Shown here: piece by piece, positions 3,025-22,564 of the stretch | Position numbering within the stretch: the first letter of the stretch is position 1 | How the letters are laid out: the number at the start of each line of letters is the position of its first letter | IMG/VR virus record: IMGVR_UViG_3300032087_003461 | Location: 1 to 32,389 of that record | Reading direction: 5' to 3' (one strand) | DNA: 32,389 nucleotides | Source: a virus | Translations under genes and position numbers: made by a program | Notes under the pieces: generated by a model | What the model was told of the DNA's origin: nothing | Seen by the model: the letters and a program-made list of their open reading frames with translations, nothing else | Database searches by the model: none

Positions 3025-3129
3025 GTTGCTCTTTTTTAAGACGAATTTTTAGTAATGTGTAAGATTTGTTTAGTTTTTAAAGATAAGTCTGTTTTTATAC
3101 AGCTTAAGTGATTAACACAATCAAAGACT

Positions 3130-3268
3130 GTGTTTTTTCCCAGAAAGGGATAAGACCAAACACCCCAGTCCCTCATCTTAGGATTCGTGACTGTGGATTG
3201 TTACCCAATCCTGTTTAGGGAAAACCAGTCTGGTTGGTGGTTTGGTTTGGTCATCTTATAAATTAGAT
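3130..3268 (-). ncRNA. Candidate structured non-coding RNA
   Basis: No open frame of note exists here, but the stretch holds several nested inverted repeats. An outer 8-bp stem GACCAAAC/GTTTGGTC (3154-3161 with 3245-3252) encloses TCCCT/AGGGA (3169-3173 with 3217-3221), a GGATTG/CAATCC hairpin (3195-3200 with 3206-3211) and an AACCA/TGGTT hairpin (3223-3227 with 3231-3235). A promoter-like sequence at 3275-3303 points into it on the minus strand, so that strand is proposed. The 3' end is not clear. It matches no RNA class that I recognise. The stems are visible in the sequence; the RNA itself is inferred. Confidence 0.45.
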
Positions 3269-3274
3269 ATAATT

Positions 3275-3303
3275 ATTATACCACAAAATTCGGCATAAGT
3301 AAA
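3275..3303 (-). promoter_or_regulatory. Minus-strand promoter before the structured region
   Basis: On the minus strand, TTTACT (3303-3298), a 17-bp spacer and a perfect TATAAT (3280-3275) form a sigma70-type promoter with predicted start near 3268. It lacks the AAAAATANTTC upstream element of the main promoter family. Confidence 0.55.
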
Positions 3304-3385: not shown

Positions 3386-3661
3386 TTATAAATCTTCGTG
3401 CTTTTCTTCGGTAGGTAATGCGTCAGACACTCTTAGCTTTTTTAGTTTACGGTCTTGCGCTTTCCAGTTTTGTAAAAGTTCCTTTTCGGCTTGATTTTTT
3501 CGGCGATTTCGACGAATCGCTGCTTGTCGAGTAGCATTTCTTTTAATGCTTGGTTTTTTATATTCTTTGCGTTCTAGCAATTCTTGTTTGAGTTCCTTGC
3601 CATAAGCTCGAAATTTTCTTAATGCTCTGTCTAGTTTCATATGCTTTGTATTAATTTTCAA
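3386..3661 (-). CDS. rpsU-like: Phage-encoded ribosomal protein bS21 homologue
   Basis: This strongly basic protein has 91 residues from TTG 3661, or 94 from GTG 3670. Residues 10-55 follow the bS21 pattern: LDRALRKFRAY, then ELLERKEYKKPSIKR, then an Ala/Arg/Lys-rich helix. In the E. coli protein the equivalents are DVALRRFKRSC, VRRREFYEKPTTERKR and the basic C-terminal helix. It is about 20 residues longer than cellular bS21, with a charged tail. bS21 sits on the 30S platform near the 3' end of 16S rRNA, where mRNA is selected; phage bS21 genes are known from marine phages. TTG 3661 overlaps the upstream stop (TTGA) with AAGGTGG in front, so it is preferred. It is the second gene of a minus-strand operon after a helix-turn-helix gene. 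Confidence 0.75.
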   Translation of the reverse strand: MKINTKHMKLDRALRKFRAYGKELKQELLERKEYKKPSIKRNATRQAAIRRNRRKNQAEKELLQNWKAQDRKLKKLRVSDALPTEEKHEDL

Positions 3662-3807
3662 AATGTCCACCTTCTCTTTCTTAAGTACTGAACTTGCTTT
3701 CTTATGCTATTTTCAGTTCTACCTAAATGCTCAGACATTACTCGCACAGGTAAGTTTGAGTAATTATCTTTGAGGTATTGTCTTTCTTTGTGTGTCCATT
3801 CTTTCAT
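3658..3807 (-). CDS. Mini helix-turn-helix protein, 49 aa (Myb/SANT-like)
   Basis: The frame from ATG 3807 to TGA 3658 encodes a single trihelical domain: it begins MKEWTHKERQYLKDNY, with LPVRVMSEHLGRTENSIRKQ as the second and third helices, and ends in a basic tail. It is the same fold as the larger helix-turn-helix proteins elsewhere in the window. The minus-strand promoter at 3814-3842 places its transcription start on the ATG, so the message is predicted to be leaderless. It is divergent from the plus-strand promoter at 3860 and coupled to the bS21-like gene. A role as regulator of this divergent switch is plausible but inferred. Confidence 0.7.
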   Translation of the reverse strand: MKEWTHKERQYLKDNYSNLPVRVMSEHLGRTENSIRKQVQYLRKRRWTF

Positions 3808-3813
3808 TCCTCT

Positions 3814-3842
3814 ATTATACTTCAAGTTAGGCAAAAAGTCAA
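3814..3842 (-). promoter_or_regulatory. Minus-strand sigma70-type promoter of the family
   Basis: On the minus strand, TTGACT (3842-3837), a 17-bp spacer and TATAAT (3819-3814) are preceded by an AT-rich AATTC upstream element like that of the other copies. The predicted start is at about 3807, the first base of the 49-aa gene. Its -35 box is only 17 bp from that of the divergent plus-strand promoter. Confidence 0.85.
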
Positions 3843-3859: not shown

Positions 3860-3888
3860 TTGACTTCGCACTGAAATGTTGCTATAAT
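3860..3888 (+). promoter_or_regulatory. Sigma70-type promoter of the family, divergent
   Basis: TTGACT (3860-3865), a 17-bp spacer and TATAAT (3883-3888) lie behind a T-rich upstream stretch. The ATG of the 45-aa gene begins at 3896, where transcription is predicted to start. Confidence 0.85.
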
Positions 3889-3895
3889 ATAACTT

Positions 3896-4033
3896 ATGAA
3901 TATTGATACAGCATACCTAATAATTTTAATAAGTAGCAATGTTATAACCTACTTTATTACAAAAAGATTAATAATTGAGCACACAATAGATGTGCTAGAA
4001 CGAGAAGGACACATCAATTTCGATGACGAGTGA
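3896..4033 (+). CDS. Small membrane protein, 45 aa
   Basis: The sequence starts MNIDTAYLIILISSNVITYF, a single hydrophobic span (about residues 5-21), followed by a charged cytoplasmic tail ending NFDDE. The ATG is 7 nt after the -10 box, with no Shine-Dalgarno sequence, so translation should be leaderless. It is the only gene between two promoters. Its position just before the Hsp20/lysis unit might mean a lysis or superinfection role, but nothing in the sequence proves that. Confidence 0.65.
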   Translation: MNIDTAYLIILISSNVITYFITKRLIIEHTIDVLEREGHINFDDE

Positions 4034-4140: not shown

Positions 4141-4527
4141 ATGACAAATACAATGTTAAGACATTTTCTCGGATTTGATCCAGCGATGTTTGAAACAGTC
4201 GATACCAACTATCCACGATATAATGTGGTAAGAACAGATGATGAATCTGTGAGTGTGGAGATTGCAGTGCCAGGCTTTCATCGAAAAGATGTAAGTGTGG
4301 AACAAGATGGAAATAAGTTGCTTATCAAAGCAAAAGCGACTGACTGGTTGCAAGAAGGCGAAAGCTATTTGCATAAAGGTTTCAGTTCAAAAGGTTTTGA
4401 TAGACAGTTTATTCTCGGCGAGTTTATGGAAGTAGATTCCGTTAGACTTAAAGATGGTATTCTTACAGTAAATGTAGTAAAGAATATTCCAGATGAAAAG
4501 AAACCAAAAACATTCGACATAGAATGA
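4141..4527 (+). CDS. hsp20: Small heat-shock protein Hsp20 (alpha-crystallin domain)
   Basis: This 128-residue protein has a short N-terminal arm (about residues 1-27) and an alpha-crystallin domain with the patterns VEIAVPGFHRKDVSVE, LLIKA and LKDGILTVNV. Hsp20 proteins hold unfolding proteins in a refoldable state; copies are widespread in marine T4-like phages, where capsid or tail assembly is the suspected client. AGGAG lies 7 nt before the ATG. It is the first main gene of the unit that carries the lysis genes, and its stop overlaps a possible 48-codon frame. Confidence 0.93.
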   Translation: MTNTMLRHFLGFDPAMFETVDTNYPRYNVVRTDDESVSVEIAVPGFHRKDVSVEQDGNKLLIKAKATDWLQEGESYLHKGFSSKGFDRQFILGEFMEVDSVRLKDGILTVNVVKNIPDEKKPKTFDIE

Positions 4528-6199: not shown

Positions 6200-6228
6200 T
6201 TGACAAACATCTTAAATTCACATATAAT
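6200..6228 (+). promoter_or_regulatory. Sigma70-type promoter of the family
   Basis: AAAATAATTC precedes TTGACA (6200-6205), a 17-bp spacer and TATAAT (6223-6228). The ATG of the next gene begins at 6235, at the predicted transcription start. Confidence 0.9.
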
Positions 6229-6234
6229 ATATCT

Positions 6235-6834
6235 ATGAATTTGTTTTATTTAGACGAAGATTTAGACAAGTGCGCAGAATACCATGTGGACAAACACATT
6301 GTTAAAATGCCACTCGAAGCTGCACAGCTTCTTTGTACAGCAGTATGGATTGATGAAGTTCTAGGCTTTGTGCCTCGTGCTTTGAATCGAGAGGAGTCTG
6401 CTGTTCTAAATGCTGAGAAAGCTAAGATAAAACATTTACCAATGGAGGAAAGACCTTTGACTCCGTATCTGCCGATGATGTACAATCACCCTTGCACGAT
6501 ATGGACTAGGTCTAGCCTCGACAATTTTGAGTGGGTGCATTGCTATGCTAATGCGTTGAATGACGAATATCATTATCGTTATGGTAAGGAGCATAAGTCA
6601 GTGGTTGAAGTAATTAATAAATTACCAGAACCTAAAAATATGCCTAGAGATGGACTCACTCCTTTCGGTATGGCTATGCCAGATGAACTGAAAGACCCAA
6701 GCGATGTCGTAGGTTCGTATCGCTTGTATTATCACACAGACAAGGCAACCTTTGCAAAGTGGTCGCACAGACCACAACCCGATTGGTGGGACGACGGGTT
6801 GGCTTGGTATGACCAAAGGATAACAAGTAAATAA
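6235..6834 (+). CDS. Conserved phage protein of unknown function, 199 aa
   Basis: The protein opens MNLFYLDEDLDKCAEYHVDK and continues HIVKMPLEAAQLLCT; it ends with an SYRLYYHTDKATFAKW motif followed by PDWW. These His/Lys-rich and aromatic motifs are ones I associate with a family found in many phages and some bacteria; its biochemical role is not established. The start ATG 6235 is set by the promoter: the longer frame from 6172 would precede the transcript. It is predicted to be translated from a leaderless message. Confidence 0.75.
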   Translation: MNLFYLDEDLDKCAEYHVDKHIVKMPLEAAQLLCTAVWIDEVLGFVPRALNREESAVLNAEKAKIKHLPMEERPLTPYLPMMYNHPCTIWTRSSLDNFEWVHCYANALNDEYHYRYGKEHKSVVEVINKLPEPKNMPRDGLTPFGMAMPDELKDPSDVVGSYRLYYHTDKATFAKWSHRPQPDWWDDGLAWYDQRITSK

Positions 6835-8323: not shown

Positions 8324-8352
8324 TTGACATTATTCCTATTTATAGTTATAAT
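8324..8352 (+). promoter_or_regulatory. Sigma70-type promoter of the family
   Basis: AAAATAGTTC precedes TTGACA (8324-8329), a 17-bp spacer and TATAAT (8347-8352). The predicted start is near 8359; an in-frame ATG begins at 8361, but the ATG with a ribosome-binding site is at 8448. Confidence 0.9.
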
Positions 8353-8388
8353 ATATATAAATGAGTGATAGATTTTATTTTCAGATGA

Positions 8389-9180: not shown

Positions 9181-9478
9181 ATTACATAATGCACCTTCGA
9201 TGTATGAAAGAGAGATTCATTACAACGAAGAGAAAAGCGAAAAAATATATTTAATGGTAAATACTTTCAAAGGCAAAGAATATTTGCACATCAGAAAATA
9301 TTATCAAGACTTTAGTGAAGAATGGAAGCCTTCGAAAGAAGGTATTTCTATGGTATTAGATTTTGATAACTCAAGGGAGTTGTTCTCAGCATTAGTTGAG
9401 ATTCTTTCCCTCGCAGAAAGTAAAAAAGTTATCGAAGAAAACTTTAAAGATTTACTTGACAATATTTATCAGAATTAA
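9173..9478 (+). CDS. PC4-like single-stranded DNA-binding/transcription cofactor domain protein
   Basis: Residues about 23-77 follow the PC4/Sub1 pattern: short beta strands (EKIYLMVNTFKGKEYLHIRK), the hallmark YYQDFSEEWKPSKEGISMVL, then a helix. In PC4 proteins the corresponding segment is R-E-Y-Y-x-D-x-x-G-x-x-K-P-x-K-K-G-I-S-L. Such domains dimerise and bind single-stranded or melted DNA. PC4-like proteins are known in phages, where roles in transcription or replication are proposed. The 25-residue C-terminal helix is extra. It lies just before the ligase promoter. Confidence 0.75.
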   Translation: MIELHNAPSMYEREIHYNEEKSEKIYLMVNTFKGKEYLHIRKYYQDFSEEWKPSKEGISMVLDFDNSRELFSALVEILSLAESKKVIEENFKDLLDNIYQN

Positions 9479-9488
9479 AAAATAGTTC

Positions 9489-9517
9489 TTGACAAAAACC
9501 TCAAACTCAGATATAAT
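9489..9517 (+). promoter_or_regulatory. Sigma70-type promoter of the family, upstream of the ligase gene
   Basis: AAAAAATAGTTC precedes TTGACA (9489-9494), a 17-bp spacer and TATAAT (9512-9517). The ATG of the ligase N-terminal gene begins at 9524, at the predicted transcription start. Confidence 0.92.
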
Positions 9518-9523
9518 ATAGTC

Positions 9524-10468
9524 ATGAGTTTGGAAAATTATCTAAAGCAATGTGACTTGGCTTACTTTAATGGTAAACCATTGATATCTGATGATGTCTA
9601 TGATAGACTGAAACAGGTAGATGAAGTAGTCGGTTACGAAGACGATAGAGAGGAGCGTGTTCCTCACACCTTTCCTATGTGGTCTTTACAGAAAGTATTT
9701 GCTGGAGAGACCAATCCGCCTTCATGGGCAGATGACGAAGCAGTAGTAATTACACCTAAACTAGACGGAAGTGCAGTAAGTATTCTATATGTAGAAGGCA
9801 AACTTACTTTAGCACTTACTCGTGGTGATGGTAAGAAAGGTGTTCCAATTACAGACAAAATAAAATATCTTGTTCCTAGAGAAATACTTACTGAGGAAAA
9901 GATAATTCAAATCACAGGAGAAGTAGTTGCTCCTGTTCAAATACCAAATGCACGAAACTATGCGGCAGGTTCCTTAAACCTTAAAGACATTGAAGAATTT
10001 AAGGAGAGGTCCCTTGACTTAGTTTTTGTTGCTTACAATGCAGAGCCAGTTAAAACTGAAAAATGGACAGAAAGACTTTTACAGATAGCAGACCTTGGGT
10101 TTGCTACTGTTCTTACTGTCGATCAGTATTACTATCCTACAGACGGCACAGTGTGGAGATTGGATAATGTAGAGGCATTTTATGACCTTGGATTTACATC
10201 ACACCACCCACGAGGGTCGTTTGCTCACAAGGTAAGAGAACAAGGAGTAGTTACTACTCTACTTGATGTAGAATGGAATGTAGGCAAGTCTGGAGCAGTA
10301 ACTCCAGTAGCAATACTAGATACAGTAGTAATTGAAGATGCCAATATATCAAGAGCAACTTTACACAATGCAGGGTTTATTGAAGCTCTTGATTTAGAAA
10401 TTGGTTGTAAAGTAGAAGTTATACGAAGTGGTAAAATTATACCAAAGATAGTAAGGAGAGTAGAATAA
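9524..10468 (+). CDS. ligA (N-terminal subunit): NAD-dependent DNA ligase, N-terminal half (adenylation and OB domains)
   Basis: The 314-residue product carries the LigA Ia-like start (AYFNGKPLISDDVYDRLK), the adenylated lysine K79 in PKLDGSA, the TRGDG motif (99-103), TGEV and an OB fold ending VEVIRSGKIIPKIV. It transfers AMP from NAD+ to itself and then to nicked DNA. It stops where LigA enzymes would continue into the zinc finger, helix-hairpin-helix and BRCT domains. Those domains are encoded 1.5 kb downstream (11934-12698), so the enzyme is split, as in phage T5. ATG 9524 starts at the predicted transcription start, with no ribosome-binding site, so it is predicted to be leaderless. Confidence 0.92.
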   Translation: MSLENYLKQCDLAYFNGKPLISDDVYDRLKQVDEVVGYEDDREERVPHTFPMWSLQKVFAGETNPPSWADDEAVVITPKLDGSAVSILYVEGKLTLALTRGDGKKGVPITDKIKYLVPREILTEEKIIQITGEVVAPVQIPNARNYAAGSLNLKDIEEFKERSLDLVFVAYNAEPVKTEKWTERLLQIADLGFATVLTVDQYYYPTDGTVWRLDNVEAFYDLGFTSHHPRGSFAHKVREQGVVTTLLDVEWNVGKSGAVTPVAILDTVVIEDANISRATLHNAGFIEALDLEIGCKVEVIRSGKIIPKIVRRVE

Positions 10469-15137: not shown

Positions 15138-15166
15138 TTGACAAAATTGTAAAAATCGAGTATAAT
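15138..15166 (+). promoter_or_regulatory. Sigma70-type promoter of the family, upstream of primase and polymerase
   Basis: AAAAATAGTAC precedes TTGACA (15138-15143), a 17-bp spacer and TATAAT (15161-15166). The primase ATG begins at 15175, within a base or two of the predicted transcription start. Confidence 0.92.
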
Positions 15167-15174
15167 ATATACAT

Positions 15175-16023
15175 ATGATTGCAATAGACTTACTTACAGA
15201 AAAAGGAATTGACTATAAAGTCCAAGGTAAGGACGCAGTTATTTCATGCCTAAACCCAGAGCATGACGATACTAACCCTTCTATGAGGGTAGATAAAATT
15301 ACAGGAATCTTTCATTGTTTTTCCTGTGGTTTTAAGGGTAATGTATTTACACACTTCGGAGCACCAGCTTCTAGTTTAGAAATTAAAATACATAACATAA
15401 AAGAAAAGATAGAACAAAAAAGAGCGGAAACAGTTGGTATTCAACTCCCAGACGATAGAATAATGTGGGACGCTCCGTTTCGTAATATAGGAAAAGAAAC
15501 ACTAAAGATTTGGCAGGCATTTACTTGGAATGTTCCTAAATTTGAAGGTAGAATAATTTTCCCAATTCGTGATATAACTGGTAAAACAGTTGGGTTAATC
15601 GGAAGATTGACAAATAATACAATGATAGGAGAGAGTAGACCTAAGTACTATATCTATCCTGTAGGAGTGCAGTTGCCTTTCTGTCCAGCAAAGCCAAAGC
15701 TGATACAGAATCGTGCTATACTTGTAGAAGGCATGTTTGATGCCTTGAATCTTTGGGACAAAGGTCTCAAGAATACTGTGTGCTGTTTCGGCACTAAACA
15801 GATGAATTGGGTAAAATTATCTCTACTAAAAATGCAAGGAGCAACAGGTATAGATATTATGTTTGACGGTGATGATGCAGGACGTCAAGCAGCACAGGAG
15901 ATAAAGGGTCTTGCAGAGAAAATGGATATGGCAGTAAAGATTGTAAAACTGAGAGATAATCAAGACCCAGGCAATTTAACAGAACAACAAATTAAGGAAA
16001 TAAAGAGAGTATTATATGGCTAA
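15175..16023 (+). CDS. dnaG-like: DNA primase, zinc-binding and TOPRIM domains
   Basis: The 282-residue primase has an N-terminal CHC2-type zinc finger (C25, H30, C48, C51, including FHCFSCGFKGN) and a TOPRIM domain with the catalytic Glu in ILVEGMFDA (E185) and DGD (231-233) in IMFDGDDAG. It makes RNA primers for the lagging strand with the helicase encoded just upstream. It is short compared with bacterial DnaG and lacks the helicase-binding tail. It is predicted to be translated from a leaderless message; no Shine-Dalgarno sequence precedes ATG 15175. Confidence 0.93.
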   Translation: MIAIDLLTEKGIDYKVQGKDAVISCLNPEHDDTNPSMRVDKITGIFHCFSCGFKGNVFTHFGAPASSLEIKIHNIKEKIEQKRAETVGIQLPDDRIMWDAPFRNIGKETLKIWQAFTWNVPKFEGRIIFPIRDITGKTVGLIGRLTNNTMIGESRPKYYIYPVGVQLPFCPAKPKLIQNRAILVEGMFDALNLWDKGLKNTVCCFGTKQMNWVKLSLLKMQGATGIDIMFDGDDAGRQAAQEIKGLAEKMDMAVKIVKLRDNQDPGNLTEQQIKEIKRVLYG

Positions 16024-21415: not shown

Positions 21416-22043
21416 ATTTAATCAGAGCAAAGGTTCAGCTCAAAAAGAAAAAATAGAATCATATGTCTATACAGGCAAAGAAAATCATCATGTAAGATTA
21501 GTTGGTGATTTACTACCTAGATATTTATACTGGGTAAAAGGTGAAAATAATAAGAATCTACCTCTTGAGTGTTTAGCTTTCGATAGAAACACAGAAACAT
21601 TCAACAACAAAGAAGTAGACCATGTGCCTTCTTACTATCCAGATCAAAAATGTGCTTGGTCTTATGCTATTCAGTGTATTGACTACAGTGGAAGCGAACC
21701 AAGTATCAAAATCTTTAATCTAAAGAGAAAGTTGTTTGACCAAATAATGACTGCTTCTGAAGATTTAGGAGACCCAACTGATACGGAAACAGGGTGGGAC
21801 GTTTATTTCAAAAGAATTAAAACAGGCCCTCAAGTATTTAATGTGGAGTACCAGTTACAAGCATTGAAATGTAAACCAAGAGCACTCGATGAGAGTGAGC
21901 AGGAGCTTATTGCAAATCTAAAGTCAATGGACGATGTTCTTCCAAGACCTACAGCTGATGCGCAGTTAGAGCTTCTAAAAAGAATAACTGAAGAAGGAGG
22001 CTCAGTTGATGAAAGTATTTCATCAGAGTTTGATGTAGAATAA
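21405..22043 (+). CDS. gp32-like: Single-stranded DNA-binding protein, gp32-like
   Basis: The 212-residue protein carries the gp32-type core: VRLVGDLLPRYLYW, then LPLECLAFDRNTETF, a Cys-containing zinc-like stretch (DQKCAWSYAIQCIDY), and a long acidic C-terminus (SVDESISSEFDVE) that in SSBs recruits partners. It coats single strands in replication and recombination. AGGAG lies before the ATG. It is followed by peroxiredoxin and then the gp47/gp46 genes. Confidence 0.82.
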   Translation: MAIKFNQSKGSAQKEKIESYVYTGKENHHVRLVGDLLPRYLYWVKGENNKNLPLECLAFDRNTETFNNKEVDHVPSYYPDQKCAWSYAIQCIDYSGSEPSIKIFNLKRKLFDQIMTASEDLGDPTDTETGWDVYFKRIKTGPQVFNVEYQLQALKCKPRALDESEQELIANLKSMDDVLPRPTADAQLELLKRITEEGGSVDESISSEFDVE

Positions 22044-22564
22044 TGATTGGAGTAGGAGAAAAGTTTCCGCCTTTTAGATTAAAAGGTGTGAATGAAAATA
22101 ATGAAATCGTAGAAGTTTCTGTTACAGAAAACTATGAACCATTGAAGCATGACTACACCGTAGTTTATTTCTATCCAAAAGATTTTACTTTTATCTGTCC
22201 TACAGAAATTGCAGGTATGGATTTATTAGTAAATAGAGCCAATGTAATCGGTATTAGTGGCGATAATGAGTTTTGTAAGTTAGCTTGGAAAAAAGATAAC
22301 GAACTTATTTCAAATATAAAACACCCTCTTGCTTGTGATGGCATGTTAAAATTGTCTTCACAACTAGGAATAGTAAATGAGTTTGAAGGTGTTTGCTACA
22401 GAGCAACATACATTATAGATAAAGAGTCCGTTATACAACATGTAAGTATAAATGCACTTGACACAGGCAGAAATGCAAATGAAGTTTATCGAACTTTACG
22501 AGCAATTCAAGCAGGTGGACTAACAGGTTGTGAATGGCAACCAGGAGATGACTTCGTAGCATGA
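22043..22564 (+). CDS. ahpC-like: 2-Cys peroxiredoxin (AhpC type)
   Basis: The 173-residue protein has the thioredoxin fold with YFYPKDFTFICPTE, in which C52 is the peroxidatic Cys, and the resolving Cys C163 in LTGCEWQPG, typical of AhpC/Prx1 enzymes. It reduces hydrogen peroxide and organic peroxides, using thiols as reductant. A phage copy is an auxiliary metabolic gene that could protect phage DNA synthesis or ribonucleotide reductase from oxidative stress. It sits between SSB and the recombination nuclease, with overlaps at both ends (TAATG, ATGA). Confidence 0.93.
   Translation: MIGVGEKFPPFRLKGVNENNEIVEVSVTENYEPLKHDYTVVYFYPKDFTFICPTEIAGMDLLVNRANVIGISGDNEFCKLAWKKDNELISNIKHPLACDGMLKLSSQLGIVNEFEGVCYRATYIIDKESVIQHVSINALDTGRNANEVYRTLRAIQAGGLTGCEWQPGDDFVA

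Follow-up and report, generated by a model that had tools for sequence, protein, structure and literature searches.

Organization of the bS21 locus

The window (the whole stretch of DNA analyzed here) is a virus record of 32,389 bases and covers part of the genome of an uncultivated T5-like phage. At 3386-3661, its minus strand encodes a 91 aa homologue of ribosomal protein bS21 with the C-terminus ...EEKHEDL. The gene starts with a TTG codon, which lines up with the ATG start (MPS...) of its relatives, and is preceded by the Shine-Dalgarno (SD)-like sequence AAGGTGG, the SDs of relatives being of AGGAG types. Of the two minus-strand genes here it comes second, behind a gene for a 49 aa HTH (D5-like) protein (3658-3807; phrog_323, E-value: 3.3e-9) whose stop codon overlaps the bS21 start by 4 nt (TTGA). 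An earlier, sequence-only reading of this DNA had ended the region at 3807, correctly, as this takes in the HTH gene. A consensus promoter, TTGACT-N17-TATAAT (minus strand, 3814-3842), is located 6 nt before the HTH ATG, a leaderless architecture that is kept in relatives.

Divergent from this operon, a motif scan located a second consensus promoter (plus strand, 3860-3898) with an ATG 7 nt after TATAAT, which is kept in L021 and L027. The gene at 3896-4033 (plus strand), apparently leaderless, encodes a 45 aa hydrophobic protein that is probably a membrane protein; a similar leaderless ORF of the 45 aa type occurs in the distant relatives G006 and G007. The divergent neighbour of bS21 encodes Hsp20 (4141-4527, plus strand; PF00011, E-value: 2.3e-16), which was found in 17 of 20 bS21/HTH records. 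Hsp20 is likewise a neighbour of bS21 in HTVC008M, Mosig EXVC030M and Pseudomonas phage Paride, none of which is T5-like.

Source phage

Comparison with PHROG and Pfam profiles identified a T5-like gene set in the window: a split NAD ligase, a D5-like regulator, primase, family A polymerase and helicase, together with single-strand binding protein, flap-type exonuclease and ribonucleotide reductase. The gene order is that of annotated T5-like phages, and the split NAD ligase and D5-D15 gene order place this 32 kb fragment among the T5-like phages (Demerecviridae). Escherichia phage T5, of the Demerecviridae, shares the early order split NAD ligase, D5, helicase, primase, polymerase, SbcCD-like pair and flap endonuclease, but has no bS21 by tblastn and no leaderless promoter within the 49 kb checked. 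Four weak matches to MAG contigs (Alphaproteobacteria, "Proteobacteria", Bacteroidetes and Halieaceae) were rejected as host evidence. A Bacteroidetes host is unlikely because the window has TTGACA/TATAAT promoters and SD sequences.

Identity and distribution of bS21

Searched alone, the window protein scored below the cut-offs of both NCBIfam TIGR00030 (20.0 bits, E-value: 4.6e-4; cut-off 28.95) and Pfam PF01165 (15.3 bits; cut-off 27). A phmmer search of the PDB gave 14 weak matches, 12 of them, including the top four, to bS21. These low scores mark a limit of sensitivity for one divergent bS21 member, because distant relatives from the same operon match PF01165 with E-values down to 7.4e-17. 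The profile search became decisive once relatives were included. In an alignment of 12 phage members and zero cellular sequences (A12), all 12 match PF01165 (best E-value: 7.4e-17), and at E ≤ 0.01 the resulting profile matched 38 distinct PDB sequences, each of which is bS21 or bS21m (best E-value: 6.5e-14). The bS21 identity first proposed from motif matching is thereby borne out. An AF2 model (pLDDT 79.5, pTM 0.35) has helices at residues 6-30 and 39-80 joined by a KPS turn at the Y-x-K-P motif (KEYKKPS in the window). This is the two-helix layout of bS21, but Foldseek comparison of the model with the PDB returned zero matches; therefore, structure contributes little to the identification. 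The longer charged tail described in the sequence-only reading is real but specific to a subgroup. The gene is under purifying selection, with dN/dS among close relatives mostly 0.07-0.21 (0.31 for one pair). By sequence comparison, we identify the ORF at 3386-3661 as a divergent but genuine bS21, predicted to be a phage paralogue.

Thirteen IMG/VR loci of this bS21 family were found directly, and more distant loci were reached via long contigs from this group of phages and via the HTH partner. Among 80 HTH loci in IMG/VR, bS21 is downstream in 74, and the HTH ATG falls 6 or 7 nt past the TATAAT of a consensus promoter in 71. Screening of 24 contigs gave nine clear bS21 matches and a tenth that is a fragment at a contig end. 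Most bS21-less contigs are too short to span the locus and were discounted as counter-examples; only G034, a T5-like contig of 100 kb, is truly without the gene. All seven contigs whose sequence upstream of ligA is 12.4 kb or longer (computed from contig ranges) carry bS21, which is therefore a core gene of the clade. Cultured phages, T5-like phages included, had no tblastn match to the window bS21 family. In L163, a T5-like MAG contig of the Halieaceae, a leaderless HTH gene is followed by an extra gene, a canonical bS21 and then a MazG-like gene, and there is no rod-shaped RNA of the kind described below.

Leaderless-type promoters

Leaderless promoters, which the sequence-only reading had claimed for this phage, are present and are conserved in relatives: TTGACW-N17-TATAAT-N5..8-ATG occurs seven times in the window, against 0.01 expected by shuffling. 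Besides those at the bS21 locus, the motif scan placed plus-strand promoters with their ATG at 78-116, 6200-6237, 8324-8363 (ATG 8 nt after TATAAT), 9489-9526 and 15138-15177 (primase gene, ATG likewise 8 nt after TATAAT). The promoter at 9489-9526 precedes ligA (NAD ligase subunit A, 9524-10468), where 77 of 80 relatives keep a spacing of exactly 6 nt but differ in the six bases themselves. In the window and at the HTH and ligA loci, the start codon coincides with the +1 predicted from a consensus promoter, and this position is conserved. By this architecture, both the HTH gene and ligA are predicted to be leaderless. Most leaderless promoters are preceded by a conserved AAAATAGTTCTTGAC block, located around the -35 box (for example at 9475-9490), and this suggests an extended early-promoter motif.

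In counts that ignore contig relatedness, leaderless promoters make up 87 of 197 strict promoters in 15 bS21-carrying core contigs and 1 of 15 in seven bS21-less T5-like records. A promoter scan of six cultured T5-like phages without bS21 found no leaderless promoter. Outside the core, the share is 5/21 in three bS21-carrying contigs (among them G033 and G035, 1/6 each), and in the bS21-carrying phage HTVC008M it is 0/5 over the 50 kb checked. Judged by architecture, the leaderless promoters appear to be real and to travel with bS21 within the clade, while bS21 predicts nothing of the kind elsewhere. As few as one or two evolutionary events may underlie the association.

The sequence-only reading had gone further and proposed that the phage protein may bias ribosomes specifically towards the leaderless messages of the phage. 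The co-occurrence within the clade agrees with such an effect, as does the impaired translation of a GFP reporter by E. coli ribosomes carrying the HTVC008M bS21. The 61S particles, which are without bS1, uS2 and bS21, do favour leaderless mRNA, but through the joint loss of these and other proteins and not through a replacement bS21 (PMC4929434). Three observations make this proposal unlikely. First, the leaderless HTH gene precedes bS21 in the operon and would be read before phage bS21 exists; therefore, host ribosomes should already read leaderless messages unaided. Second, bS21 itself is SD-led, as are about half (~48%) of early-strand ORFs. Third, G033, G035 and HTVC008M have few or no leaderless promoters despite carrying bS21. 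Of the broader idea of a ribosome swap that favours phage messages, the bS21 gene, its phage origin, the leaderless promoters and their clade-level co-occurrence with bS21 stand; the preference for leaderless messages is not supported.

A structured RNA downstream of bS21

Directly downstream of bS21, the minus strand is predicted to encode a rod-shaped structured RNA (3106-3259, or about 3106-3268), present in one copy per contig. Its promoter, TTTACT-N17-TATAAT with a TGG-extended -10 (minus strand, 3275-3303), is found as the same element after bS21 in relatives. A G+C hairpin between T-runs (2973-2988), recognized by reading the sequence, separates the RNA from the convergent gene at 2646-2948 and is a probable bidirectional terminator. 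A role as a leader or riboswitch is unlikely because no minus-strand gene follows the RNA in the window, the next gene being convergent.

A covariance model (R1) built from distant relatives alone finds the window RNA with 41.2 bits (E-value: 1.7e-5) and elsewhere matches once per contig, adjoining bS21. Double compensatory changes number 26 cells against 8.3 shuffled in A5, 48 against 14.2 in A4 and 29 against 8.3 in A11. None of 500 shuffles, a control that does not remove relatedness, reached this covariation, and the pairing was lost when partners were slid, a control that keeps relatedness. The minimum-energy fold of the window RNA on its own is multibranch and not a rod; the rod rests on the alignment. 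A promoter search detected the RNA after bS21 in 48 of 70 assessable loci and missed at least 12 further loci of the window type that have it. Most of the wider set of HTH loci likewise have this promoter and a related rod behind bS21. About ten bS21/HTH loci, including L163 of the Halieaceae bin, are without the RNA, as are phages in which bS21 is followed by a MazG-like gene (L163 again being an example). No Rfam 15 family matched the window at E ≤ 1; the single chance match was to the opposite strand of L122. With no known family in Rfam to assign it to, the rod RNA is possibly a new phage RNA family, a candidate noncoding RNA to assay alongside bS21.

This arrangement raises the question of whether bS21 acts mainly with the rod RNA, in an RNA-protein complex or in RNA-based control, rather than as a ribosome subunit. 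bS21 can act outside ribosomes, as with the OLE RNA that it binds in Halalkalibacterium (PMC12054373), and the occurrence of the phage RNA at so many bS21 loci and its strong covariation agree with a partnership of this kind. The OLE complex resembles the phage locus in combining bS21 with a structured noncoding RNA, but OLE RNA is bacterial, about 600 nt long and has a CCUCCU mimic, whereas the phage RNA is a putative bS21 partner. A search for a CCUCC anti-SD mimic within the rod RNA found none. The RNA also has its own promoter, and bS21 and HTH occur without it at the ten or so loci mentioned above. We regard an action mainly through the RNA as distinctly unlikely.

Use of SD sequences

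The SD of bS21 is stronger than that of typical phage genes (median pairing energy of -7.3 kcal/mol, vs -4.9 kcal/mol for early-strand ORFs). A similar feature is known from the autoregulated rpsU gene of F. johnsoniae, where the SD of the bS21 gene is also stronger than those of other genes (PMC9976891); that system differs in being cellular, with no phage, leaderless gene or adjoining structured RNA. In five mutually related clade contigs, an SD motif is present in 139 of 288 early-strand ORFs (48%) and 15 of 96 late-strand ORFs (16%), and, when pairing energies are compared, early and late ORFs differ significantly only in G008 and G009 of the five. No early-to-late fall in the SD motif was seen in Luma or PM135. 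Late-strand genes of G006-G010 have few SD motifs and frequent ATGGCA starts. This weak late-strand drop would fit a switch away from SD-led translation, and would fit a specific leaderless preference less well.

The opposite effect can also be considered, in which the host reads leaderless messages readily, early phage genes suit this host, and the phage bS21 improves SD-dependent initiation of downstream and later SD-led genes. The position of bS21 behind a leaderless gene and the SDs on many phage genes are in line with it, and species with mostly leaderless mRNAs are said, in a statement cited in PMC12054373, to tend to be without bS21. Late-strand genes are poorer in SDs, however, and not richer, and we think this direction improbable.

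Proposed role of the phage bS21

The clade-wide association of genes and promoters suggests that the phage alters the choice of messages by host ribosomes. Our preferred explanation, to which we give a probability of about 0.5, is that the phage bS21 takes the place of the host protein and changes which messages are selected, in either direction. It builds on computed results: the identity of bS21, purifying selection, the operon, the promoter geometry and clade-wide conservation. According to this explanation, bS21 would be made early from the HTH-bS21 operon. The leaderless HTH gene would be read by unmodified host ribosomes, and bS21 would be translated through SD pairing and stop-start coupling at the TTGA overlap. 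The phage bS21 would then enter the 30S platform, displacing the exchangeable host bS21, and the use of the 16S anti-SD end would be altered so that initiation shifts towards phage messages. The adjoining RNA probably belongs to the same module, as a partner or regulator of bS21, and this is the least certain step.

A simpler role, in which bS21 is an ordinary auxiliary gene that supplements a host subunit held loosely by the ribosome and has no selectivity, is consistent with two properties of bS21: it can be exchanged, and phages carry it more often than any other ribosomal protein (PMC6375957). Against this role, although not decisively, the window protein has diverged from its cellular counterparts, occurs throughout the clade wherever this could be assessed and is linked to a regulator gene; we consider the auxiliary role rather unlikely. 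We entertain as a tentative, rather unlikely extension that the rod RNA belongs with HTH and bS21 in a single translation-control module, in which bS21 would go to ribosomes and/or be held by the RNA, translation would pass from SD-led early to SD-poor late genes, and the RNA would be a new class with bS21 as its partner.

Phage-encoded bS21 and the idea of a ribosome swap have been published (Mizuno 2019, PMC6375957; Chen 2022, PMC9723584). Incorporation of a phage bS21 into ribosomes has been shown by others, only for the HTVC008M protein in E. coli, the in vitro yield of a reporter protein from such ribosomes being about 5% (PMC6375957). The bS21 of this Pelagibacter phage has the bS21 fold and motif and lies near an hsp20 gene, as in the window, but HTVC008M is T4-like and its bS21 is 21% identical to that of the window (MAFFT alignment); it has no annotated HTH partner, no leaderless promoter in 50 kb and no rod RNA that could be found. 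In Bacteroidetes jumbo phages, for which a ribosome swap was also proposed, bS21 is likewise on the opposite strand to its surroundings (PMC9723584). Their bS21, however, is beside late structural genes and expressed late, while that of the window is beside early genes, and the sigma70-type promoters and SDs of the window are ill-suited to a Bacteroidetes host. The Bacteroidetes-type bS21 that blocks the anti-SD has an aromatic residue at the Tyr54 position (PMC9723584).

A search of the available literature for a phage bS21 linked to leaderless genes or an adjoining RNA found none, which is not proof of absence. New here are the clade-wide HTH-bS21 operon, the conserved leaderless promoter of this operon and the rod RNA. 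To our knowledge, what bS21, the commonest phage-carried ribosomal protein, does for phages has been shown by nobody. The clade described here keeps bS21 as a core gene, coupled to a single regulator gene and at most loci also to a single structured RNA, and its genomes mix leaderless, SD-led and SD-poor genes, which makes them a concrete system for measuring message selection by a phage-altered ribosome.

Elsewhere in the window, the gene at 22043-22564 (plus strand) is peroxiredoxin-like by eye and weakly matches a PHROG of unknown function. It is flanked by the genes for the single-strand binding protein and an SbcD-like protein, which is unusual for a T5-like early region.
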